From Sulfuricystis multivorans (lineage in GTDB: Bacteria; Pseudomonadota; Gammaproteobacteria; Burkholderiales; Rhodocyclaceae): a DNA stretch of 64,000 nucleotides. Both the position numbers and the translations under genes were made by a program. The stretch lies in assembly GCF_003966565.1 (NCBI RefSeq), contig NZ_AP018718.1:1488001-1552000 (forward strand), in the 5' to 3' direction. The notes beneath the pieces were generated by a model. It made no database searches. It was not told the origin of the DNA and was given only the letters and a program-made list of their open reading frames with translations. Shown here in pieces: positions 24,605 through 53,425 of this stretch; the first letter of the stretch is position 1; the number at the start of each line of letters is the position of its first letter.

Positions 24605-25546
24605 ATGCCAAGCCCGACACCGATCGATACCGATGCGGTCGAAGCGCTCTTCGCGTTGCCCTTCAACGATCTCATCTACCGCGCGCAGACCGTGCACCGC
24701 CAGCATTTCGACCCAAACCAGGTGCAGCGCTCGACGCTGCTGTCGATCAAGACCGGCGGCTGCTCCGAGGATTGCGGCTATTGCTCGCAATCGGCGCGCC
24801 GCGATACCGGCATCGGCCGCGGCAAGCTGCTCGATCTCGAGGAAGTCGAGCTCGCGGCCAAGGCCGCCAAGGAAAAAGGCGCGACGCGTTTTTGCATGGG
24901 CGCCGCCTGGCGCGGGCCGAAGGACGGCGACCTCGACAAAGTGATCGAAATGGTGCGCGCGGTAAAAAACCTCGGCATGGAAGCCTGCCTGACGCTTGGG
25001 CTCCTGGCGCCGGGGCAAGCCGAGAAGCTCGCCGCGGCTGGCCTGGACTACTACAACCACAATCTCGACACCGGAGCCGAGTATTACGACCAGATCATCA
25101 CCACGCACAGCCAACAGGCGCGCATGGAAACCCTGATGAGCGTGCGTGGGGCCGGTATCAAGATCTGCTGCGGCGGCATCATCGGCATGGGCGAGAGCCG
25201 CCGCGTGCGCGCGTCCTTGATTGCCCAGTTGGCGAACCTGAACCCGCCGCCGGAATCGGTGCCGATCAACCACCTCGTCGCGATTCCCGGCACGCCGCTG
25301 GAAAACGCGCCGCCGCTCGATCCATTCGAGTTCGTGCGCACCATCGCTTGCGCTCGCATCACGATGCCGACTTCCTATGTCCGGCTGTCCGCCGGCCGGC
25401 AGCAGATGAGCGATGAGCTGCAGGCGCTGTGCTTCCTGGCCGGGGCGAATTCGATCTTCTATGGCGATAAGCTGCTCACTTCCGGCAACCCGGAGGTGGC
25501 GCACGACGAGGCGCTGTTCGCGCGGCTCGGGCTCACAGGCTGCTAG
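24605..25546 (+). CDS. bioB: Biotin synthase
   Basis: BioB inserts sulfur into dethiobiotin, the last step of biotin synthesis. The 313-aa radical-SAM enzyme carries the CxxxCxxC cluster motif as [10 protein letters not shown] (Cys53, Cys57, Cys60). It also has the YNHNLDTG segment and RLSAGRQQM near the C-terminus, whose Arg coordinates the auxiliary cluster in the family. The ATG follows a short ribosome site (CAGGAC). It overlaps the 3' end of the convergent bioD by 14 bp. Confidence 0.97.
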
Positions 25547-26162
25547 CGAGTCTCGCCAGGCCCGCCGCATCGTCGCGGCGCAAGGCCACGATCGGAATGT
25601 CGCCGACGTGAGGAGTCAGCGATGCCAGCGTCTCCTCGACGCTCACCGTGCTGTCCGCGGTTTCATTGACGATCAGCCGTGCGGGACGGATGCCGACTTC
25701 GCGCAGCGCAGCGAGCGCCGTGAGCGTGTGCGAGAGCGCACCCAGATGAGTGCCGGCAACGAGCAGCGTCGGCACTTCGAGGGCTACGATCCAGTCGCGC
25801 ACCGTGTGTTGCGCCGTCAGCGGCACCATCATGCCTCCCACGCCCTCGATGAGCAGGAGTCCATCATTCGTAGCGATCTCGTCTCGGCACCAGGCGACGA
25901 GCGCATCGAAGTCGATGCTTTTGCCCTCCTTCGCCGCCGCGAGATCGGGCGAGAAGGGCGCCTGATAGCACCATGCCGTCCTGCCAGCGCCGATTCTGGC
26001 GAGATCGGACTCGGCATGACGCGCCGGATCGTAGCCGGAGACCACCGGCTTGATCGCCCGCACCGGTCTATCCTGCTCGCGACACGCCGCGATCAAGCCC
26101 GCGCAAAGCCAGGTTTTGCCAAGGTCGGTGCCCGTCGCGGTAATAAAATAACTTTTGCCCAT
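25533..26162 (-). CDS. bioD: Dethiobiotin synthetase
   Basis: BioD closes the ureido ring of dethiobiotin from DAPA, CO2 and ATP. The 209-aa protein has the P-loop GTDLGKTW (about 11-18), a KPVVSGYD segment with the conserved Lys, and the [10 protein letters not shown] motif. It is the only bio gene here on the minus strand: its 5' end is 14 bp from the bioA start and its 3' end overlaps bioB by 14 bp. Its promoter must lie inside bioA or in that 14-bp gap. Confidence 0.95.
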
Positions 26163-26176
26163 CGCGCCATTTTCCC

Positions 26177-27451
26177 ATGACTTGTATCGACGCCCTTTGG
26201 CTCCCCTACACCCAGATGGCCACCGCGCCTGCCCCTTTGCCGGTGGTTGGCGCGCAAGGGGTACGGATTCGGCTCGCCGACGGCCGCGAGCTGATCGACG
26301 GTATTTCCTCGTGGTGGACGATGTGCCACGGCTATCGCCATCCGCACATCGTCGCGGCCGTCAAGGCGCAGCTCGACACCCTGCCGCATGTGATGTTCGC
26401 CGGCCTCGTCCATGAGCCGGCACTGAAACTCGCCCGGCGGCTCGTCAAGCTGCTGCCGGGCACACTCGAGCGCGTCTTCTTCTCCGAATCCGGTTCGGTC
26501 GCGGTCGAAGTGGCGCTCAAGATCGCCGTGCAGTATTGGCGCAACCGCGGCGAGGACCGGCATGCCTTCGTCGCCTTCAAGGATGGCTACCACGGCGACA
26601 CGCTGGGCGCCCTCTCCGTCACCGATCCAGGCTGCGGCTTTCACGCTGCGATGTCCGCCTATCGCGTCCCGCAATTCTTCGCCGCGCTGCCGCGCGATGC
26701 GGCCACGCGCGCCGCGCTCGATGACTTGCTGGAAAAACATCGTCTCGACATCGCCGCGGTGATCGTCGAGCCGCGCGTGCAGGGCGCCGGCGGCATGCGT
26801 TTTCACGATCTCGCCACACTGCGCGCCATCCGGGCTGCCTGCGATGAACACGGCGTGCTGCTCATCCATGATGAGATCATGACCGGCTTCGGCCGCACCG
26901 GCCAGATGTTCGCCTCCCCTGCCGACGCGCCGCCAGACATCCTGTGCCTGTCGAAGGCGCTCACCGGCGGCACGCTGCCACTTGCCGCCACCGTCGCCAG
27001 CGATCATGTTTTCGCCGCGTTTTGCTCCGCACGCGCCGAGGATGCCTTGATGCACGGCCCGACCTTCATGGCCAATCCGCTCGCCTGCGCGGCGGCGAAT
27101 GCCTCGCTCGATCTGTTCGAGACCGAGCCGAGACTAGAGCAGGTCGCAGCGATCGAAGCGCAGATGAAGCGCGAGCTCGCACCCTGCCGCGCTCTGCCTG
27201 GTGTCAGCGATGTGCGCGTCATGGGCGCGATCGGCGTGGTGCAGCTCGAGCACCCCGTCGCCGCCGCCTTGCGCCCGGCCTTCATCGAACGCGGCGTGTG
27301 GGTGCGGCCGTTCGGCGACATCGTCTATCTCACCCCGCCCTTCGTGATCGAACCGGCAGATCTGAGCACGCTCGCCACGGCGGTCTGCGAAGTCGTAGCC
27401 GAGTGGTCGAAACAGGTCCACCGCCTTCCATGCCCGATCTCGACGCCCTGA
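26177..27451 (+). CDS. bioA: Adenosylmethionine-8-amino-7-oxononanoate aminotransferase
   Basis: BioA converts KAPA to DAPA using S-adenosylmethionine as amino donor. It is a class III PLP aminotransferase of 424 aa. The N-terminus has LWLPYTQM and SSWWTMCHGY, typical of BioA. The central part has ESGSVAVEVALK and HDEIMTGFGRTG, and the PLP lysine lies in CLSKALTGG (around 258). The 3' end overlaps bioF by 22 bp. Confidence 0.97.
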   Translation: MTCIDALWLPYTQMATAPAPLPVVGAQGVRIRLADGRELIDGISSWWTMCHGYRHPHIVAAVKAQLDTLPHVMFAGLVHEPALKLARRLVKLLPGTLERVFFSESGSVAVEVALKIAVQYWRNRGEDRHAFVAFKDGYHGDTLGALSVTDPGCGFHAAMSAYRVPQFFAALPRDAATRAALDDLLEKHRLDIAAVIVEPRVQGAGGMRFHDLATLRAIRAACDEHGVLLIHDEIMTGFGRTGQMFASPADAPPDILCLSKALTGGTLPLAATVASDHVFAAFCSARAEDALMHGPTFMANPLACAAANASLDLFETEPRLEQVAAIEAQMKRELAPCRALPGVSDVRVMGAIGVVQLEHPVAAALRPAFIERGVWVRPFGDIVYLTPPFVIEPADLSTLATAVCEVVAEWSKQVHRLPCPISTP

Positions 27452-28536
27452 TCGCGCCGCGGCTTGTGCAGCTCGATGCGGCGAATCTTCGGCGCAGGCT
27501 CGTCGCGATCGATCCGTCGCTCGTCGATGTCGCCTCGAACGACTATCTGGGGCTCTCTCGCCATCCGCTCGTCATCGAGCGCGCCTGTGAATGGACCACT
27601 AAGCATGGCGCCGGCAGCCGCGCCTCCAGGCTCGTCACCGGCACCAGCGATGAACTGCTGGCGCTGGAAGCACGGCTCGCCCGCTTCAAGGGCAGGGAAG
27701 CCGCGCTGATCTTCGCCAGCGGCTTTCAGCTCAACAGCTCGGTGCTGCCGGCCTTGCTGGAACTGGGAGACGCGCCGCTCGTCTTCACCGATCGCTTGAA
27801 CCACGCCAGCCTCCATGCGGGCTTGCGCGGCGTCAAACAAATCCGCTTTCGCCACAACGACCTCACGCATCTCGAAGAACTGCTGATGAGCCATCCGGGC
27901 AAGACGCGCTGGATCGTCACCGAGTCGGTGTTCAGCATGGACGGCGACACGGCCGATGTCGCCGCGCTCGCGGCGCTGGCGGAAAAGCATGGCGCTTTTC
28001 TCTATCTCGACGAGGCCCATGCCACCGGCGTGCTCGGGCCGCAGGGCAGCGGGCTTTCGCAAGGGCGGGCCACCGTGACGATGGGCACGCTCGGCAAGGC
28101 CCTGGGCGGCGCGGGGGCCTATGTCGCTGGCTCACAGGCATTGATCGACTGGCTGATCAACCGCTGCGCCGGCTTCATCTACAGCACCGCGCCGGCGCCG
28201 GCGGCCTTGGGCGCGCTCGATGCGGCGCTCGATCTCGTGCCGACGATGGATGCCGAGCGGGCACGGCTGATGCGGATGGCCGATGCCTTGCGCAGCGCGT
28301 TGCAATCGTGCGGCTTCGACACTCTGGCCTCGTCGACCCAGATCGTCCCCGCCGTGTTCGGACAAGCGCGCCGCACGCTCGAAGCGGCGGCAAAACTCCG
28401 TCAGGCAGGCATCCTCGCCGTCGCGATCCGTCCGCCGACGGTGCCCGTCGGCACGGCGCGGCTGAGGTTCTCACTTTCGGCGGCGCTTTCCGACGGCCAG
28501 TTCGAGCGGCTGCTTGCGGCGGTAAAGACCCTGTGA
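27430..28536 (+). CDS. bioF: 8-amino-7-oxononanoate synthase
   Basis: BioF condenses pimeloyl-ACP (or -CoA) with alanine to KAPA. The 368-aa PLP enzyme shows ASNDYLGLSRHP at the N-terminus, the glycine-rich HGAGSRASRLVTG, DEAHATGVLG and the PLP lysine in TLGKALGGAG. The ATG at 27430 lies inside bioA, giving a 22-bp overlap. The stop overlaps the bioH GTG as GTGA. A longer frame reading upstream through bioA is a shadow. Confidence 0.97.
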   Translation: MPDLDALIAPRLVQLDAANLRRRLVAIDPSLVDVASNDYLGLSRHPLVIERACEWTTKHGAGSRASRLVTGTSDELLALEARLARFKGREAALIFASGFQLNSSVLPALLELGDAPLVFTDRLNHASLHAGLRGVKQIRFRHNDLTHLEELLMSHPGKTRWIVTESVFSMDGDTADVAALAALAEKHGAFLYLDEAHATGVLGPQGSGLSQGRATVTMGTLGKALGGAGAYVAGSQALIDWLINRCAGFIYSTAPAPAALGALDAALDLVPTMDAERARLMRMADALRSALQSCGFDTLASSTQIVPAVFGQARRTLEAAAKLRQAGILAVAIRPPTVPVGTARLRFSLSAALSDGQFERLLAAVKTL

Positions 28537-29156
28537 GCACGGTCGTCTTCGTCCACGGCTGGGGCTACGATGCGCACCTGTGGGATGAGGTGCGCGCCTT
28601 GCTCGACCCGACGCTTGGCATCGTCACCCTCGATTTCGGCTACTTTGGTGCCGCCTCACCAGCGCCGACTCTCGATGAGCCCGTCCTCGCCGTCGGCCAT
28701 TCGCTCGGCGTCTTGTGGTGGCTTGCGCAATCGGCCATTCCCTGGCGGCGCCTGCTGTCGATCAACGGCTTTCCGCGCTTCACCGCCAGCGCGGATTACC
28801 CAGGGGTTGCGCCGCGGCTGCTCTGTCGCATGCAGCAGCAGTTTCGGAAAGCGCCCGCGACGGTGCTCGCCGATTTTCATGCGCGCTGCGGCGGGCACGC
28901 GCCTTTTGGCTTGCCGAACCTCGCGCGCCTTGCGGCCGGGCTCGATGCGTTGGGCGAGTGGGATGGCCGTGCGCGGCTCGCCTCGCGCCGCAGCGATGTC
29001 GTCGCGCTGGCTGGAACGAACGATCCGATCGTCCCTGCTGCGATGAGTCGCATGGCCTTCGGGACGGTCGAATTCATCGATACCACGGGGCACCTGCTCC
29101 CCGAGACCCATCCGGAAATCTGCGCCCGCTGGATCGAAAGGCTCGCCGATGCGTGA
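28533..29156 (+). CDS. bioH: Pimeloyl-ACP methyl ester carboxylesterase (BioH-type)
   Basis: BioH removes the methyl group from pimeloyl-ACP methyl ester, ending the BioC-BioH pathway. It is an alpha/beta hydrolase with an oxyanion segment FVHGWGYDAHLW, the nucleophile elbow GHSLG (Ser about 56), an acid in AGTNDPIVP and the catalytic His in TGHLLP. At about 207 aa it is clearly shorter than E. coli BioH (256), mainly in the lid region. The GTG at 28533 overlaps the bioF stop (GTGA), and its end overlaps bioC by 8 bp. The position directly before bioC supports the role. Confidence 0.9.
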   Translation: MSTVVFVHGWGYDAHLWDEVRALLDPTLGIVTLDFGYFGAASPAPTLDEPVLAVGHSLGVLWWLAQSAIPWRRLLSINGFPRFTASADYPGVAPRLLCRMQQQFRKAPATVLADFHARCGGHAPFGLPNLARLAAGLDALGEWDGRARLASRRSDVVALAGTNDPIVPAAMSRMAFGTVEFIDTTGHLLPETHPEICARWIERLADA

Positions 29157-29895
29157 TGTCGCGCAACGCTTTTCTGCCGCCGCAGACAGTTACGACGCCC
29201 ATTCGGCGGCGCAGCGCCATGCCGCGCAGCGTCTTGCCGAGCATCTCGTGCGCTGCCGCTTGCCGCCGCGCCCGCGCGTGCTGGAGATCGGCTGCGGCAC
29301 CGGGCATCTGACGGTGCTATTGGCGCAGCAATTGCCCGGCGCGCAGATCTTGGCCACCGACCTCGCGCCGCCGATGGTCGCGGCCTGTCGCAGGCGACTG
29401 GGCAACAACCCCCGCCTTGCCTTCGTCGCGATGGACGGCAGCCGACCCGCCGTGAAAGGAAAGTTCGATCTGATCTGCGGCAATCTGGTCGCGCAATGGT
29501 TCGACGATCTGCCCGCCGCCTTCGCGACGCTGGCCGCACTGCTGGCGCCTTCGGGTGTGATGTTGATGAGTTTGCCGGGCGAAAAGACCTTTTGCGAGTG
29601 GCGTGCGGCCCACGCCCGGCATGGTTTGCCCCCCGGCACGCGCAAACTGCCGACACGAGACGATTGCCTGGCGGCCCTGCCGCCGGGTGAAAACACGCTC
29701 GAGTGTGAATACTGGCGCGACCAGTATGCCGATGGGCTTGCCTTTCTGCGTAGCTTACGCGCGATCGGCGCCGATACGCCCGCCGCTGGTCACAAGCCAC
29801 TCGCCGTCGGCCAGCTGCGGCGCGTGCTGGAAACACTGGGTGTTGCCCCCCAGCTGACCTATGAATTTTTCTTGCTGATCCATCAGAGGAAATAG
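29149..29895 (+). CDS. bioC: Malonyl-ACP O-methyltransferase BioC
   Basis: BioC methylates malonyl-ACP to start pimelate synthesis through the fatty acid pathway. The 248-aa protein has the N-terminal RFSAAADSYDAHSAAQ motif and the SAM-binding motif VLEIGCGTGHL (about 45-55). It also has ATDLAPPMV and the later WFDDLPAAF. The C-terminal part from about residue 199 is repeated at 32957-33105: an 86-bp core is nearly identical (one mismatch) while flanking bases differ considerably. The protein itself looks complete. Confidence 0.94.
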   Translation: MRDVAQRFSAAADSYDAHSAAQRHAAQRLAEHLVRCRLPPRPRVLEIGCGTGHLTVLLAQQLPGAQILATDLAPPMVAACRRRLGNNPRLAFVAMDGSRPAVKGKFDLICGNLVAQWFDDLPAAFATLAALLAPSGVMLMSLPGEKTFCEWRAAHARHGLPPGTRKLPTRDDCLAALPPGENTLECEYWRDQYADGLAFLRSLRAIGADTPAAGHKPLAVGQLRRVLETLGVAPQLTYEFFLLIHQRK

Positions 29896-29903
29896 GAGAC
29901 TGA

Positions 29904-30086
29904 CCCCGACTTTTTGGGCTGTTTGGCAGCTCACCAGGCGGCGGCACCCTCCTCGCCACGCTGAAGAAAGAACTGCTGACGATCTCCAATGTTTCGTCTC
30001 ATTTTGTCTATGCAGAGCCGGCCGTGGGAGAGGCCGCGAGGGCGGGTGTTTATTTTGCGCATGGCCATTTCATCCTCCCCGGCTGA
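29904..30086 (+). pseudogene. Orphan C-terminal coding fragment of an unknown protein
   Basis: After a stop at 29901-29903, one frame stays open for 60 codons to TGA at 30084. It has host-like GC content and protein-like composition (LFGSSPGGGTLLATLKKELL, then a SHFVYAEPAVGEAARAG stretch). There is no start codon with a ribosome site, so it looks like the 3' end of a truncated gene. I do not recognise the family. It sits between bioC and the decayed transposase. Confidence 0.4.
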
Positions 30087-30319
30087 CATTGTCCGTCATG
30101 CGCGTAAGTAAGAGAGTTACCAGCAGAATGGTGTCGGTTATTTTTACATTCAGTAGGTACCACTGCGGGTATAAATTAAGTAACTAAATGATTTACTGAA
30201 ATAGTTTCCATTTCATGAAATTTGGCTCAAATTTTGCTATGAGCCCCACGTACGCGTCCCGCCTCAAATTCTTTTGGACATGTACCGCCCCCAAAATTCT
30301 TGTAGTACTGATTTGCAGT

Positions 30320-30650
30320 TCATGCAGCCTTGCGGATCGCTTGAGCCTGCAGGACTTCAAAGGATAGATGAAGCCCAGTTTTTGGCTGCGGCCACTATGC
30401 TTAGCTTCGGGTGCGACGAAGTTTGCTTGCGCCGGAACTTCGTTTTCAAGACTCGTTTTCAAGACGCCAATGGCGATTGTAGCGATCCCTGAACTCGGTG
30501 ACAGCCTGCCGCACTTCGCACTTATTCGATGTTGCGGAAGAAGCGTCCATGAATGCTTGCTCCTTCAGCGTCCGTTTGAAGCGTTTGGTCATGCCGTTGG
30601 TCTTGGGTTTCGAGACGATGGCGAAGTTATATTGCTTGGGCCATTCCCAA
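30320..30650 (-). pseudogene. Decayed integrase-core (rve) transposase, C-terminal remnant
   Basis: On the minus strand the frames together spell the end of an IS3/IS481-type transposase: KPKTNGM, KRFKRTLKEQ, IHGRFFRNIE (in a second frame), VRQAVTEFRDRYNRHWRLE, KLGFIYP, then FEVLQAQAIRKAA and a stop (another shift). At least two or three frameshifts and an extra ~26-codon in-frame insertion between RLEN and KLGF make it inactive. The left boundary is the stop at 30320-30322; the 5' limit near 30650 is approximate. The N-terminal and catalytic parts are missing. Confidence 0.75.
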
Positions 30651-30696
30651 GTATCTGCAATATTTTTTCCTGTTCTTAGACATAGGAGTCAAAATC

Positions 30697-31674
30697 ATGA
30701 AATATCCAAGGATTGCATTAGTAATATCAGCATTTGTTGCGTTGTCATATTCGACAAGCAGCGCTGCCAGCCCAATTGAAGTCTCTCTAGATGCGCTGAA
30801 ATTCGTTGTAAAGAACCAAACATCGATTGCAGCTTCCTTTGCGGTTGCCCACACCCAAAATGGAAGTGGGGAGCCTGGTTCTAGAGTTTGTGGTCCGAAG
30901 GTTAGCGAAACTGGAGATGCAGTCAGTTGTAATACTAGCGATTTTTTCAATCATCAGAACATTGGCAATGACACAGCGATTTCTGATGCGTTTGGGATTA
31001 GTTGGGCACTAGGATTCCGGGGTGAAGCTACAGCACATGCTAGTGTATTAAAAGGAGATTTTGCAGCAGCAGGAGCATACGCCCGTGGAGGTGCTGCAGT
31101 CACAGCTACTGACGGTTCTCTCGGCGCAACAGGTATGACGAAAGCTACTGCTTCGTTTTCGCTCGGAGGGCTGACGCTCCGCGCCTCGAAGAAAGACCCT
31201 GAATTATATTCTTTACTAGTGTCCGATTTACCGCTATGGAGTTTGCCTGAAGATTTTTTTGATAAAGAGATTTCTGGAATATCACATAATGCATTTATTA
31301 CACTCCCTCCCAGCCTATCAAAAGGAGTTCCTGACCATATATTTTGGGCCTTGGATCTTCTGCTTGATGGCGCCTCAGGTCAGCTAACTGTATCAAATTA
31401 TGGTCTATCTGTAACATCTCCTCTAACTTCTGCTGATTTTATAGACTTATCTACTGCAGCTGAAAGCGTGTATCAACTCAGTGGTTCCGGTGATTTCACT
31501 ATTGATATTCCGTTCCTCGATCTTAATGCTCCAGAGCAGGTTATAACCTTTGATGAAATGTCTCTTACAGTTGCAGCGATGCCAGAGCCTACCTCGTTAC
31601 TTTTGGTATTCCTAGGACTTGCCTGTATTGCAGGCATTCGCACAACGCGGCTGTTCACGGGTTTCCTACGGTAG
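30697..31674 (+). CDS. PEP-CTERM sorting-domain exported protein
   Basis: A 325-aa exported protein with an N-terminal signal peptide (about 1-24, ending STSSAAS). Its C-terminal tripartite signal is PEP (294-296), a hydrophobic helix of about 17 residues, then a basic tail (RTTR). PEP-CTERM proteins are processed by exosortase and archaeosortase-type enzymes and belong to envelope or exopolysaccharide systems. No exosortase gene is in the window. The middle is Gly/Ala/Ser-rich with no recognised domain. AGGAG lies 8 bases before the ATG. Base composition is much more AT-rich than the neighbours, suggesting transfer. The stop overlaps the convergent transposase frame by 20 bp. Confidence 0.85.
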   Translation: MKYPRIALVISAFVALSYSTSSAASPIEVSLDALKFVVKNQTSIAASFAVAHTQNGSGEPGSRVCGPKVSETGDAVSCNTSDFFNHQNIGNDTAISDAFGISWALGFRGEATAHASVLKGDFAAAGAYARGGAAVTATDGSLGATGMTKATASFSLGGLTLRASKKDPELYSLLVSDLPLWSLPEDFFDKEISGISHNAFITLPPSLSKGVPDHIFWALDLLLDGASGQLTVSNYGLSVTSPLTSADFIDLSTAAESVYQLSGSGDFTIDIPFLDLNAPEQVITFDEMSLTVAAMPEPTSLLLVFLGLACIAGIRTTRLFTGFLR

Positions 31675-32812
31675 GAATCTGGGTCTGACATGGTGTCTTT
31701 GGCATTTTGGTATAGAGGAACGACGAAGTGTCCTCAGTGTTGAGCTGGAAGATCTTGAGCTTGAAATACTCCATGTCGCGGAAGCCCCTGGCGCGGCGGC
31801 GCAAGAGCGCAATGGAGACGTTGCCGGCCTCCAGACGCGAGGTCGTGATCGGATGATCGGCGTAAGCGCAGATGCCGGTGCGGTGCGACTGCAAGGTCTT
31901 CACGAAGGCAGCCAGTCCGGTGATCTTGGCGGCCTTGGCCATGCCGCACCAGTCATCGAGACGCTGCGCCATCTCGGCGATCGTGGAGTTGGGTTGCCAC
32001 AGGCGCTGCAACTGCTCCTTGAGCGCGTAGAGCGAGGCCAGTGGTTGATTCAGCGCCAGCAGTTGATCCAGTCGTCCCTGGTCGGTTTCCTTGAGGGTCG
32101 TGCGATTCGACAACAGCAGCCACAGGCTGCCCTTGATCGTTTGCTGGCCGGTCAGGTCGCCCAGGGTCTTGGCGGCCTTGAACTCGGCCCGGCGGCAATC
32201 ACGGATCACCTTGCTGAACATCTGCATGACGTGGAAGCGATCGAAGACGATCGCCGCGCCCGGCAGCGACTCGCGCACGGCGGCGATATAGGCCGCTCCC
32301 ATGTCCAGCGCCACCGCCTGGATGCCTTCAGCACACTCCTGCGACAGGGCGTCAAGGCATTCGATCAGCACGGCGGACTCGCGACCCTCCTTCACCCACA
32401 GGATGCGGCCGGAGTTCGTTCCGGGCGACAGGTCATAGACCAGGGTGAAGTAGCTTTGCCCCTTGGCGCGGGCGACTTCATAGACGCCGAGGTAACGAAT
32501 CCCGGTCAGGGTTTGCGGCCGAGGGATCGGGATCGTCTCGGCCAAGTGGGCGCATTCGATCGCTTTCACCGAGTCCCACGACAGGCCCGTGTGACGCGCC
32601 ACCGTCGAAATCGGCATGTGCCGGGCCATGCCGGCAATCAGGCGGGCGTAGCGTTTCGTCACACGCGCCTTGGGCGCCACGAACGACAGATGCTCGACAC
32701 GCACGTGGCCGGGCGACAAGAAGGTCTCGGCATACTCGATCTCGATCTCGCAGCGGTGCCCGCCCAGCGGCACGTCCAGCACCGTCCGCCGCAACAGGCG
32801 ATTGACCGAACC
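31655..32812 (-). pseudogene. ISL3-family transposase, 5'-truncated
   Basis: The conserved part matches the DDE transposase of ISL3 elements: RTVLDVPLGGH, VALDMGAAYIAAVRE, IVFDRFHVMQMFSKVIRDCRR, GSLWLLLSNR, YADHPITTSRLEAGN and ARGFRDMEYFKLKI. The usual N-terminal CPxCG zinc finger is absent. The open frame continues to an ATG at 32953, but those ~47 codons are antisense to the bioC remnant, so they are probably not native. The C-terminal ~20 residues run into the PEP-CTERM gene end. No terminal inverted repeats were found. Host-like GC content. Confidence 0.72.
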
Positions 32813-33176
32813 GCGCCGCCCAGTGCGGTGATCCATCGGCCGACGCCGCCGGCGCACGCCCGCTGCCGACGAGAGAGGAATGTCTGGCCACATTGCCGCC
32901 AGGGGACAACCGCATCGAAACCGAACACTGGGTCGATCGCCCCCCCAAGGCATCGACTTTCTGCGTAGCTTACGCGCGATCGGCGCCGATACGCCCGCCG
33001 CGGGTCACAAGCCACTCGCCGTCGGCCAGCTGCGGCGCGTGCTCGCGACACTGGGCCCTTTGCCGCAGCTGAGCTATGAATTCTTCTTTCTGATCCACGG
33101 CCAGCGCTGCTGGCGAGACTCACCTGCGCCACCACCAGAAAATCAGCGTCAGCAGCAGCGAAAGCAGAATCGATGA
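32812..33176 (+). pseudogene. Second copy of bioC 3' end, frameshifted remnant
   Basis: The frame from 32812 gives RAAQCGD, LPTREECLATLPPGDN and IETEHWVDR. This lines up with LPTRDDCLAALPPGEN and LECEYWRDQ of BioC. In a run of seven C (32940-32946) the frame shifts by one base, and GIDFLRSLRAIGADTPAAG then follows to LSYEFFFLIHG. The core 32957-33042 is almost identical to bioC 29742-29827; the flanks differ strongly. The remnant is abruptly joined upstream to the truncated ISL3 gene and reads on into the DUF2905 3' end. Confidence 0.85.
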
Positions 33177-33320
33177 GGTGAGCGGAAAATAAAAATCGAA
33201 ATGCTCGCGCTCGATGTGGATGTCACCGGGCAAACGGCCGAAGGGCAGGCGCGACAGCCACGGCCAGAGCGCGCCGACGGCAACGATGAAGAGACCGAGG
33301 AGGATCAGCGTCTTTTGCAT
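33120..33320 (-). CDS. DUF2905 family small membrane protein
   Basis: A 66-aa protein of the DUF2905 family. Two hydrophobic segments (about 4-22 and 47-62) flank the conserved loop [25 protein letters not shown]-like sequence (seen as [13 protein letters not shown] near residues 25-37). It is an inner-membrane protein of unknown function. It is convergent with the bioC remnant and divergent from queF. Confidence 0.9.
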
Positions 33321-33401
33321 AGGCCTATCAAGGGGCGGTTCCGAACGATATAAGCATTGTGCGCATTTATAATCCCGTCAAGCACATTGCCGCATCCGAC
33401 C

Positions 33402-33821
33402 ATGCCTTCCCAGCCCTCGAAGACCCTCGAAACCTTCCCCAATCCGGCGCCGCAGCGCGATTACCGGATCCACATGGAGATTCCGGAATTCACCTGCCTG
33501 TGTCCAAAGACCGGCCAGCCGGATTTCGCGGTGCTGACCCTCGATTACGTGCCGGACCAGCTCTGCATCGAATTGAAGAGCCTCAAACTCTACATCTGGA
33601 GCTTCCGCGACGAGGGGCATTTCCATGAGGCGGTGACGAACCGCATCCTCGATGACCTCGTCCAGGCGACGAAGCCGCGCTTCATGCGGCTTGCCGCGCG
33701 CTTCTTTGTCCGTGGCGGCATCTTCACCAACGTCGTCGCCGAACATCGCAAGAAGGGCTGGAAACCAAAGCCGCGCATCGAACTCGACGATTTCCCGGCC
33801 CAGTCGAACACGCGCGGCTGA
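33402..33821 (+). CDS. queF: NADPH-dependent 7-cyano-7-deazaguanine reductase
   Basis: QueF reduces preQ0 to preQ1 in queuosine synthesis. The ATG at 33402 gives 139 aa, the size of the short homodecameric type I enzyme. The catalytic Cys lies in [11 protein letters not shown] (Cys34), and the QueF signature is [20 protein letters not shown] around residues 59-78. A TATAAT lies at 33368-33373. No preQ1 riboswitch is visible upstream. Confidence 0.96.
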
Positions 33822-50924: not shown

Positions 50925-52130
50925 ATGAGCACCACTTCCCTGTTCGCCAACGTCGAAATGGCCCCCCGCGATCCGATCCTGGGCCTGACTGAAGCCTTCA
51001 ATGCCGAAACCAATCCGAACAAGGTCAACCTCGGCGTCGGCGTCTATTTCGGCGACGACGGCAAGATTCCTTTGCTTTCCTGCGTCAAGCAGGCCGAGAA
51101 AGCCCGCCTCGAAACCCAGCCGCCGCGCGGCTACCAGCCGATCGAAGGCCCGGCCGCCTACACCACGGCCGTCCAGAATCTGCTCTTCGGCAAGGACTCG
51201 GAACTATTGGCCGCCGGCCGCGCCGTCACCTGTCAGAGCCTGGGCGGCACCGGCGCCTTGAAGGTCGGCGCCGATTATCTGAAGCGCCTGCTGCCGGAAA
51301 CCACCGTCTATATCTCCGATCCGAGTTGGGAAAACCATCGCGCGCTCTTTGAAGCGGCGGGCTTCCCGGTCAAGGATTACCGCTATTACGACCCGGCCAC
51401 GCGCGGCGTCGATTTCGCCGGCATGAAGGCGGCTTTGCTGGCGATGCCGGCACGCTCGATCGTCGTGCTGCACGCCTGCTGCCATAACCCCACCGGCGCG
51501 GATCTGACCGTCGAACAGTGGAAAGAGATCGTCGCCGCGATCCGCGAGCGCGACCTCGTCGCCTTCATCGACATGGCCTACCAGGGCTTCGCCGACGGCA
51601 TCGAGGCAGACGCCGCCGCGCTGGATCTCTTCGCCGCCTCCGGCCTGCAATTCTTCGTCGCCAGCTCGTTCTCGAAGTCGTTCTCGCTCTATGGCGAGCG
51701 CGTGGGCGCCTTGACCATCGTCACCGCGAACAAGGACGAATCCGCGCGCGTGCTCTCGCAGATCAAGCGCGTGATCCGCACCAACTATTCCAACCCGCCC
51801 ACCCACGGCGGCGCCATCGTCGCCGCCTGCCTCGCCAGCCCCGAGCTGCGCCAGATGTGGGAGGACGAACTCGCCGGCATGCGCAACCGCATCCGCGCGA
51901 TGCGCCGAAGCCTCGTCGAGAAGCTCACCGCCAACGGCGCCGCCGGCTTCGAGTTCATCGACGTGCAGCGCGGCATGTTCTCCTACACGGGCCTTTCCGC
52001 CGCGCAAGTGGACAAGCTGCGCGCCGAGTTCGGCATCTACGCCGTCTCCACCGGACGCATCTGTGTCGCCGCGCTGAACACCCGCAACATCGATTACGTC
52101 GCGAAAGCCATCGCCGCCGTGATCAAGTGA
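50925..52130 (+). CDS. Aspartate/aromatic-amino-acid aminotransferase (class I-alpha)
   Basis: A PLP aminotransferase of the AspC/TyrB subgroup, interconverting aspartate or aromatic amino acids with their 2-oxoacids. The 401-aa protein has VNLGVGVYFGDDGKIPLL, HACCHNPTGADL, AYQGFADG and the PLP lysine in SSFSKSFSLYGERVGAL. RYVEALR-type ends are missing, but RICVAALNTRN fits the substrate Arg region. Which of aspartate or tyrosine is preferred cannot be read from the sequence. tRNA-Val follows 32 bp downstream. Confidence 0.94.
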   Translation: MSTTSLFANVEMAPRDPILGLTEAFNAETNPNKVNLGVGVYFGDDGKIPLLSCVKQAEKARLETQPPRGYQPIEGPAAYTTAVQNLLFGKDSELLAAGRAVTCQSLGGTGALKVGADYLKRLLPETTVYISDPSWENHRALFEAAGFPVKDYRYYDPATRGVDFAGMKAALLAMPARSIVVLHACCHNPTGADLTVEQWKEIVAAIRERDLVAFIDMAYQGFADGIEADAAALDLFAASGLQFFVASSFSKSFSLYGERVGALTIVTANKDESARVLSQIKRVIRTNYSNPPTHGGAIVAACLASPELRQMWEDELAGMRNRIRAMRRSLVEKLTANGAAGFEFIDVQRGMFSYTGLSAAQVDKLRAEFGIYAVSTGRICVAALNTRNIDYVAKAIAAVIK

Positions 52131-52133
52131 CGC

Positions 52134-52139
52134 TATAAT
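52134..52139 (+). promoter_or_regulatory. Candidate -10 of tRNA-Val
   Basis: A perfect TATAAT lies 23 bp before the tRNA 5' end, just after the aminotransferase stop. The -35 at 16-18 bp is poor (GC-rich), so the tRNA could also be read from upstream. Confidence 0.45.
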
Positions 52140-52162
52140 CCGCGCCGCGCTGATTTATTTTT

Positions 52163-52237
52163 GGGCGGTTAGCTCAGCGGTAGAGCACTGCCTTCACACG
52201 GCAGGGGTCACTGGTTCGAACCCAGTACCGCCCACCA
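52163..52237 (+). tRNA. tRNA-Val (CAC)
   Basis: A 75-nt cloverleaf with acceptor stem GGGCGGT/ACCGCCC, the D arm GCTCAGCGGTAGAGC and anticodon stem CTGCC/GGCAG around the loop TTCACAC, giving anticodon CAC. It also has the T loop TTCGAAC and an encoded CCA. Confidence 0.96.
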
Positions 52238-52249
52238 ATCCTTCGAAAG

Positions 52250-52275
52250 GCCCGATGTTCACGTCGGGCTTTTTT
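52250..52275 (+). terminator. Terminator of tRNA-Val
   Basis: GCCCGA and TCGGGC form a stem (extended by weaker inner pairs) followed by six T. Confidence 0.88.
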
Positions 52276-52283
52276 CTCCGCCA

Positions 52284-52310
52284 GTGCCGTCCCGCCAGCA
52301 CCGAGTTTCA
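52284..52310 (-). repeat. REP-like repeat downstream of the AttH-like gene
   Basis: On the minus strand TGAAACTCGGTGCTGGCGGG followed by ACGGCAC begins 8 bp after the AttH-like stop. GTGCTG and CGGCAC can form a small hairpin around GCGGGA. Confidence 0.65.
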
Positions 52311-52318
52311 TGCAGCGC

Positions 52319-53425
52319 TCACAGGCGCATCGGTCGGTGATAGCCGGTGAGCTCGAGATAACCGCGCCCACGCCGCCGACCCTCGGCAAGCAGCGTGACC
52401 GCGCCTTCCCAATACACCGTGCCGGTCGAACGTCGGGCGTCGAGCTCCTGATCCTCGAGCAGCGGTTCGATCGCGAAACGCAGCGCCTCCGCGCCGCGGC
52501 CCAGCGTCAACTGGCAACGCACCGGATAGCGCGTGCCGGTATGCGGCGAAAGCCAGTGACCGAGCGGCTCGAAATGCACGTCGGTCGGGCCGAAGCTACG
52601 CTCGAAGCCCGCCGCGGTGCGCAGCCGCGCGCTCGCCCAGAGGCTGCCTTGTCCAGAGCGAGGACGAATGCGGAAGGCCATCAGCGCACCGCCATCGTCG
52701 AGGTTGATGCCCAGCCAGTCCCAGCCTGCTGCTCCGGCAGCGAGCAGCTGCGACGACCATTCGTGATCGAGCCAGGCGCGTCCACCGACCGACAATGACT
52801 CATTACCCTGCTTGACCGTGCCGCTGACGGCGAGCTGCGGCTGGCTGTAGTAGTGGCTCGCCTGCTCCGGCTGCGGCCCCTTGCGCGAGTAGCCGCCATC
52901 GCCTTGCAGCAAGAGCGGCTGCGTCGGTGAAAACCGCAGCTCGAAGCCGAAGCCCGCGGCGTCGATCCTTGCGTCATAGCGGTCATCCGGTGTACGCGCC
53001 AGCTGCCAACCGGCGAGGTGGAGCTCGGTATCGCTGATCGAGAACCCGGCGGCCGGATCGTCGCGCCGCACGCGCGAGACCCGTTGGTCATGCAGCAGAT
53101 GCCCCAGGCGCGGCCCTGCCAGAGCGGCATGCGCAAACATGAGCTGGTGCGGCGCGAAGCGCGATGGGTTGTTCGGATCGTGTGTGGTGCGGCTGCGGAA
53201 AAAGGTGATCTGGACACCAAGCGCCTCGGCGGTGGCCGTCTCGAGCCAGCCGGTGAGGTACCACCATTCGGTGCGAAATTCCGGATGTGCGCCGTGATCG
53301 CGCGGAAAGACCAAGGGCCGCGGCAAGACGGGCGGAAATGCCGGCGCAGCGGCCAGCAGCCGGCGCGGCAGCATCGGCAGCATTCCGGCCGAAAGCAGCG
53401 TTTGCAGCCAGCGGCGGCGCTGCAT
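52319..53425 (-). CDS. AttH-like lipocalin-domain protein (carotenoid 1,2-hydratase family)
   Basis: A 368-aa exported protein with two lipocalin-like domains of the AttH/CrtC type. Key marks are a signal peptide (RRRWLQTLLSAGMLPMLPRRLL), EFRTEWWYLTGWLET, APHQLMFAHAALAG, the SHYYSQPQLAVSG stretch and AWLDHEWSSQLL. The ATG at 53425 overlaps the permease stop. Together with the FtsX-type permease and ATPase it forms an AttEFGH-like export unit. The substrate is unknown; lipid or envelope export is an inference. Confidence 0.87.
   Translation of the reverse strand: MQRRRWLQTLLSAGMLPMLPRRLLAAAPAFPPVLPRPLVFPRDHGAHPEFRTEWWYLTGWLETATAEALGVQITFFRSRTTHDPNNPSRFAPHQLMFAHAALAGPRLGHLLHDQRVSRVRRDDPAAGFSISDTELHLAGWQLARTPDDRYDARIDAAGFGFELRFSPTQPLLLQGDGGYSRKGPQPEQASHYYSQPQLAVSGTVKQGNESLSVGGRAWLDHEWSSQLLAAGAAGWDWLGINLDDGGALMAFRIRPRSGQGSLWASARLRTAAGFERSFGPTDVHFEPLGHWLSPHTGTRYPVRCQLTLGRGAEALRFAIEPLLEDQELDARRSTGTVYWEGAVTLLAEGRRRGRGYLELTGYHRPMRL

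Follow-up and report, generated by a model that had tools for sequence, protein, structure and literature searches.

Organization of the bioC locus

The window analysed here is a stretch of 64,000 nucleotides from Sulfuricystis multivorans (contig NZ_AP018718.1, positions 1,488,001–1,552,000 of the forward strand) that carries the biotin cluster bioB-bioD-bioA-bioF-bioH-bioC (24605–29895) and, about 3 kb later, a second, broken 3′ end of bioC, a minus-strand DUF2905 gene and queF. With a probability that we put at about 70%, the intact bioC (copy 1) is a xenologous, divergent allele and the broken end (copy 2) is in part the remnant of the resident gene. Copy 1 is read as a divergent allele and copy 2 as what is left of an older gene because copy 1 is an outlier in synonymous divergence (dS) from the closest relative compared, G017, and because the first part of copy 2 (block A) is G017-like. 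The first-pass annotation had suggested that a foreign or duplicated bioC allele recombined with the resident gene; its main line is retained here, although it missed a broken ISL3-family element whose truncated end abuts copy 2. The features that carry the argument are as follows.

29149–29895, plus strand: bioC copy 1, intact, divergent allele (NCBIfam match, identity and dS)
29742–29827, plus strand: 86 bp core of copy 1 (85/86 to copy 2)
29896–32852: insert, about 3.0 kb long and mostly debris of mobile elements (G+C 0.39–0.53 left of the ISL3 element)
32853–33105, plus strand: bioC copy 2, a broken 3′ end made of block A, core and tail
32853–32956, plus strand: block A, resident-like (92–94/104 to G017 in two alignments, 64/104 to copy 1)
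32940–32946, plus strand: C7 run at which the bioC frame changes (frame comparison)
32957–33042, plus strand: 86 bp core of copy 2 (85/86 to copy 1, 69/86 to G017)
33043–33105, plus strand: tail of copy 2 (over 33043–33100, 42 or 43/58 to copy 1 and 37/58 to G017)

The two copies and their shared core

The two cores match at 85 of 86 positions, which bears out the single difference reported in the first-pass annotation, as does the lower similarity on both sides: outside the core 107 of 162 aligned positions are equal (a second alignment loses one match in the tail), and the two alleles diverge by about 34–38%. At the outside-core rate, 86 positions would show no more than one mismatch with a probability of about 1.5e-14, and the identity of the two copies in the core differs from that in block A with a Fisher p of 1.2e-11. 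The upstream homology that had been noted for copy 2 is real and extends from about 32849, and the insertion of about 3 kb between the copies, likewise noted, occupies 29896–32852. An assembly or polishing artefact that equalised the cores would agree with the restriction of the near-identity to 86 bp; we regard it as extremely improbable, since the cores still differ by one base, their flanks are divergent enough for reads to be placed and the 2.81 Mb genome behind the window is rated 100% complete in three contigs.

Copy 2 retains sequence from the equivalent of codon 163 onward, and the frame change noted earlier at the C7 run is confirmed; the intact G017 gene is one base longer than copy 2 across this stretch. 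Because codons 1 to about 162 are lost and the frame is shifted, copy 2 is, judged from its sequence, a pseudogene. BioC would then be supplied by copy 1. The latter was named BioC (malonyl-ACP methyltransferase) from its best profile match and its position in the operon; that match, to TIGR02072 of NCBIfam, reaches 154.7 bits and lies below the cut-off of 184.95, as do those of three congeneric bioC genes (121, 135 and 144, the lowest scored without its first residues).

Divergence of copy 1

For bioF and bioH, both identity and trees place G017 closest to the window. The dS of copy 1 to G017 is 1.21, and the neighbouring genes give 0.39 (bioB), 0.58 (bioD), 0.46 (bioA), 0.35 (bioF), 0.46 (bioH), 0.45 (queF), 0.35 (DUF2189), 0.32 (dapD) and 0.50 (dapC). 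In a ranking of 45 open reading frames (ORFs) of the window against 80 kb of G017, copy 1 comes first, and the other 44 have a maximum of 0.70 and a median of 0.34; the nonsynonymous divergence is below dS in 40 of the 45, the remaining five being likely out-of-frame ORFs. The proportion of synonymous differences (pS) is 0.60 for copy 1 versus 0.26–0.40 in eight neighbours. The G017 gene itself is not the odd one (dS of 0.69 to G003 and 0.82 to G006), and copy 1 stands at 0.85 and 1.02, respectively, from the same two relatives. Fast protein evolution is insufficient to account for copy 1, because its synonymous sites are raised too. On the left side, the last part of bioH matches G017 at 54 of 60 positions; identity then declines across about 29150–29300 with no sharp edge and stays at about 0.7 inside copy 1 from 29300 onward.

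A plain tandem duplication of bioC within the lineage, in which copy 1 diverged fast, copy 2 decayed and the core was converted, appears quite improbable. The copies do lie in tandem, and the approximately unbiased (AU) test leaves copy 1 and G017 possible as sisters; the duplication, however, leaves unexplained by selection on the protein a divergence of copy 1 that is raised at synonymous sites as well as in the protein, and it sits poorly with a block A that is 88–90% identical to G017 where copy 1 is only 59% identical to it. Uniform divergence of both copies from one relative, which the first-pass annotation had named as the mark of such a duplication, was not seen. Of its two alternatives, the foreign allele is thus favoured by the dS of copy 1 and the duplicated one is disfavoured by dS, though not by the AU test.

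Three-part structure of copy 2

Block A is 88–90% identical to G017 versus about 62% to copy 1 by counts (64/104) and would be resident sequence. The core is no closer to G017 (69–70/86) than G003 (69) and G006 (70) are to that genome, so it is not specially resident-like, and it is best regarded as a gene-conversion tract that probably ran from copy 1 to copy 2. The tail again is not G017-like, so that the end of copy 2 is itself, as far as these comparisons go, a mosaic. The proposal that the resident end survives as a pseudogene behind the insertion is therefore supported for the first 104 bp and lacks support for the tail at 33043–33100.

Several results weigh against the replacement of a resident gene by a foreign copy 1. 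The tail resembles G017 less than block A does (Fisher p 1.1e-4), which would not be expected of a plain resident remnant. An AAR (lysine) codon in the core is common to G017 and is absent from the nine other relatives shown, which hints at the opposite direction of conversion. For bioC, the AU test does not reject a sister relationship of copy 1 and G017 (p 0.134), the path through the protein tree from copy 1 is shortest to G017 (0.50, with G003 at 0.52), and the bioA tree, like that of bioC, fails to resolve the window and G017. Low plain identity is not unique to bioC either: the minimum identity to G017 over 323 windows of 104 bp taken outside bioC is 0.654, in bioH, and the minimum inside copy 1 is 0.66. 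Finally, a donor of copy 1 at more than 73% protein identity was found neither in 60 other relatives and 296 other family genomes nor by a pattern scan of relatives' contigs (the best 80 of 436 relatives).

The trees otherwise join the window and G017 for bioF and bioH (support 99–100) and do not join them for bioC; in the bioC DNA tree the path from copy 1 to G003 (0.53) is shorter than that to G017 (0.63), and tree tests of bioC versus its neighbours gave no significant conflict. The best protein identity of copy 1 to relatives is 71–73%. In the protein tree it stays within the clade of G017, G006 and G003 (100/98), and therefore the donor, if any, would be a near relative.

The ISL3-family element and its junction with copy 2

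31649–32852, minus strand: ISL3-family element with its right end missing (NF033550, 274.5 bits; DDE_Tnp_ISL3 and HTH)
32849–32852: CCGG at the junction, fitting both the ISL3 element and G017 bioC (window, G008/G018 element and G017 bioC side by side)

The element opens at 31649 with a terminal stretch that is also present in G008 and that lies about eight codons before the end of the ORF at 30697–31674. Its homologues in G008, G018, G002 and G010 all end matching at 32852, where block A begins, and the G008 element (a comparison copy with an internal deletion of its own) continues for about 204 bp past that point to a terminal repeat. The element in the window has thus lost its right end and the N-terminus of its transposase, and is probably immobile. 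A 4 bp match such as that at the junction also arises often by chance where DNA is rich in G+C.

The 432-residue transposase ORF (31655–32953, minus strand) is a chimera of the antisense bioC remnant and a transposase without its N-terminus. Its first approximately 34 residues are bioC read backwards, which accounts for its short match to G017 bioC, and Pfam finds only the HTH and DDE domains in it.

Proposed course of events

In the favoured explanation, a divergent allele of an unsampled and probably congeneric lineage would have taken the place of the resident bioC. The incoming DNA may have comprised bioC and trailing debris up to the ISL3 element, with homologous recombination joining its left side close to the boundary of bioH and bioC and an illegitimate joint at CCGG placing its right side within the resident bioC. 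If both joints arose in one step, the event would be a homology-facilitated illegitimate recombination that left the foreign bioC intact, shortened the ISL3 element and cost the resident bioC its 5′ two thirds; such a one-step join is a tentative proposal, to which we give less than even odds. In a two-step variant, homologous replacement would have come first and a deletion reaching from the ISL3 element into bioC second, with the same product. In the same event or later, a short gene-conversion tract would have made the cores nearly identical, probably from copy 1 to copy 2.

The order of bioC, insert, bioC end and queF also matches the product of one crossover, and the copies share just the region in which that crossover would have taken place. 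In such a Campbell-type integration copy 1 would be the resident gene, and a circle with a G017-like bioC fragment and the insert would have recombined in the core, the fragment becoming copy 2. We think this improbable: the dS of 1.21 between a supposedly resident copy 1 and G017 is left unexplained and needs a second replacement, and the three insert ORFs that were scanned, a part of those in the insert, include no plasmid-type gene.

Xenologous gene replacement is known between related bacteria. The favoured explanation resembles it in that, within an ordinary operon, a single gene shows divergence at synonymous sites while keeping its position and an open reading frame; it differs from the usual case in that the remnant of the older gene persists downstream, and the donor was not found in the genomes searched. 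Homology-facilitated illegitimate recombination in natural transformation has been reported (PMC6382021) in S. pneumoniae, A. baylyi and P. stutzeri. The locus has in common with it one junction at few shared bases (CCGG) and possibly one homologous side; in contrast to it, the junction here lies within an insertion sequence and a two-step origin fits equally. As in ISL3-family insertion sequences, transposase domains and a left terminal region are present, and unlike in a complete one, the right end and the transposase N-terminus are lost. The event is of a known kind, and its scar is unusually complete: old end, new gene, broken mobile element and conversion tract are all retained, so that the replacement of an allele within a biosynthetic operon can be read at an intermediate stage. 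Scars of this type could serve to gauge the reach of conversion between alleles as different as these, although the process as such is well established.

The bioC–queF interval in relatives

33123–33320, minus strand: DUF2905 gene (PF11146, 97.5 bits)
33402–33821, plus strand: queF (collinearity with G017 is back from here, from 33400)

Six congeneric loci were compared (G017, G003, G011, G001, G006 and G013). All six have bioF-bioH-bioC. In five of them queF follows 1.6 to 6.9 kb downstream; on the contig of the sixth (G013) it was not found. A second bioC end beside bioC was found in none of the six at E 1e-4. Uninterrupted loci, which the first-pass annotation had proposed to look for, thus exist in relatives, with bioC followed by queF and no second copy in five of the six. 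A close bioC is lacking in seven of 18 congeners (best E 1.9e-20 or weaker), three of these seven being less than 90% complete. The contents of the interval vary: azlC-like genes occur in G017, G003, G011 and G001, whereas G006 and, again, G001 have an AMP-binding enzyme (all named from reading translations).

In the relatives compared, no DUF2905 gene was found at this position. It is present in two of 19 genus genomes, the window's own included, and among 31 DUF2905 loci examined, each with about 1.5 kb of flank, bioC lies beside it in none of the other 30. Separately, DUF2905 has matches at E 0.001 in 94 of 199 family genomes, again counting its own.

The varied contents of the interval, the presence of DUF2905 in two genus genomes and its 30 other loci without bioC alongside, together with a tail that matches G017 at only 37 of 58 positions and is followed by DUF2905, would agree with two exchanges: the bioC 3′ end and the bioC–queF interval with DUF2905 would have come first, and copy 1 with its debris would have followed from another lineage. 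This possibility, which we consider somewhat doubtful, extends the favoured explanation and is not exclusive of it, and copy 2 would therefore be three-part. Against it, the tail is just 58 bp long, drift of a pseudogene could contribute to its divergence, and in a search of 296 other family genomes for a source of the tail and DUF2905 stretch the matches lay in or near DUF2905, none of those listed covering the bioC tail or beginning before about 33098. More speculatively, and in our view rather unlikely, the interval could be a recurrent site of exchange in the genus at which swaps drag varying lengths of the bioC 3′ end; if true, bioC tails would form a layered record of successive transfers, and the window would show one swap with its old and new ends adjacent and under conversion.

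Other features of the insert and the window

24605–29153: bioB, bioD (minus strand), bioA, bioF and bioH, the biotin cluster upstream of bioC copy 1, in genus-typical order
30008–30115: dispersed intergenic repeat (13 other places in its own genome, 12 listed in G017)
30312–30626, minus strand: decayed integrase-type transposase remnant (DNA match to a sequence listed seven times in G016 and also in G018)
30697–31674, plus strand: ORF of 325 residues, read as PEP-CTERM-type (C-terminal motif by eye; its last codons come from the ISL3 end)

Among 40 scored candidates, the short dispersed repeat of the insert was the sole sequence found a second time elsewhere in the genome. It is about 70–100 bp long, all 13 of its other copies lie outside the window, and seven of them and one G017 copy were aligned with it. 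The remnant at 30312–30626 has a weak, sub-threshold match to rve_3 (24.7 bits versus a cut-off of 26.5), and no transposase was recognised, by reading only, among six ORFs of the multi-copy G016 locus consulted for typing it. The 325-residue ORF is present in one of 19 genus genomes (its own, and none of the other 18); searches of Pfam and NCBIfam gave it no family at E 0.001 and hence no PEP-CTERM profile match, and an exosortase gene (TIGR02602) lies in the same genome at G000:C1:1632012-1632722. An Rfam search of 29700–33500 returned nothing at E up to 1.

In the biotin cluster, the best NCBIfam matches of bioB, bioD and bioA exceed their cut-offs, that of bioF lies under it (395 versus 426) and the bioH profile match is weak (58 bits). 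The gene order is the same in relatives, and a foreign origin of the whole cluster was rejected, as order and dS fit the genus. At 28678–28679, within bioH, G017 has about 145 bp extra relative to the window. Farther downstream, the genes flanking the point at 52130–52319 are about 9 kb farther apart in G017, likely owing to an insertion there or a deletion here.

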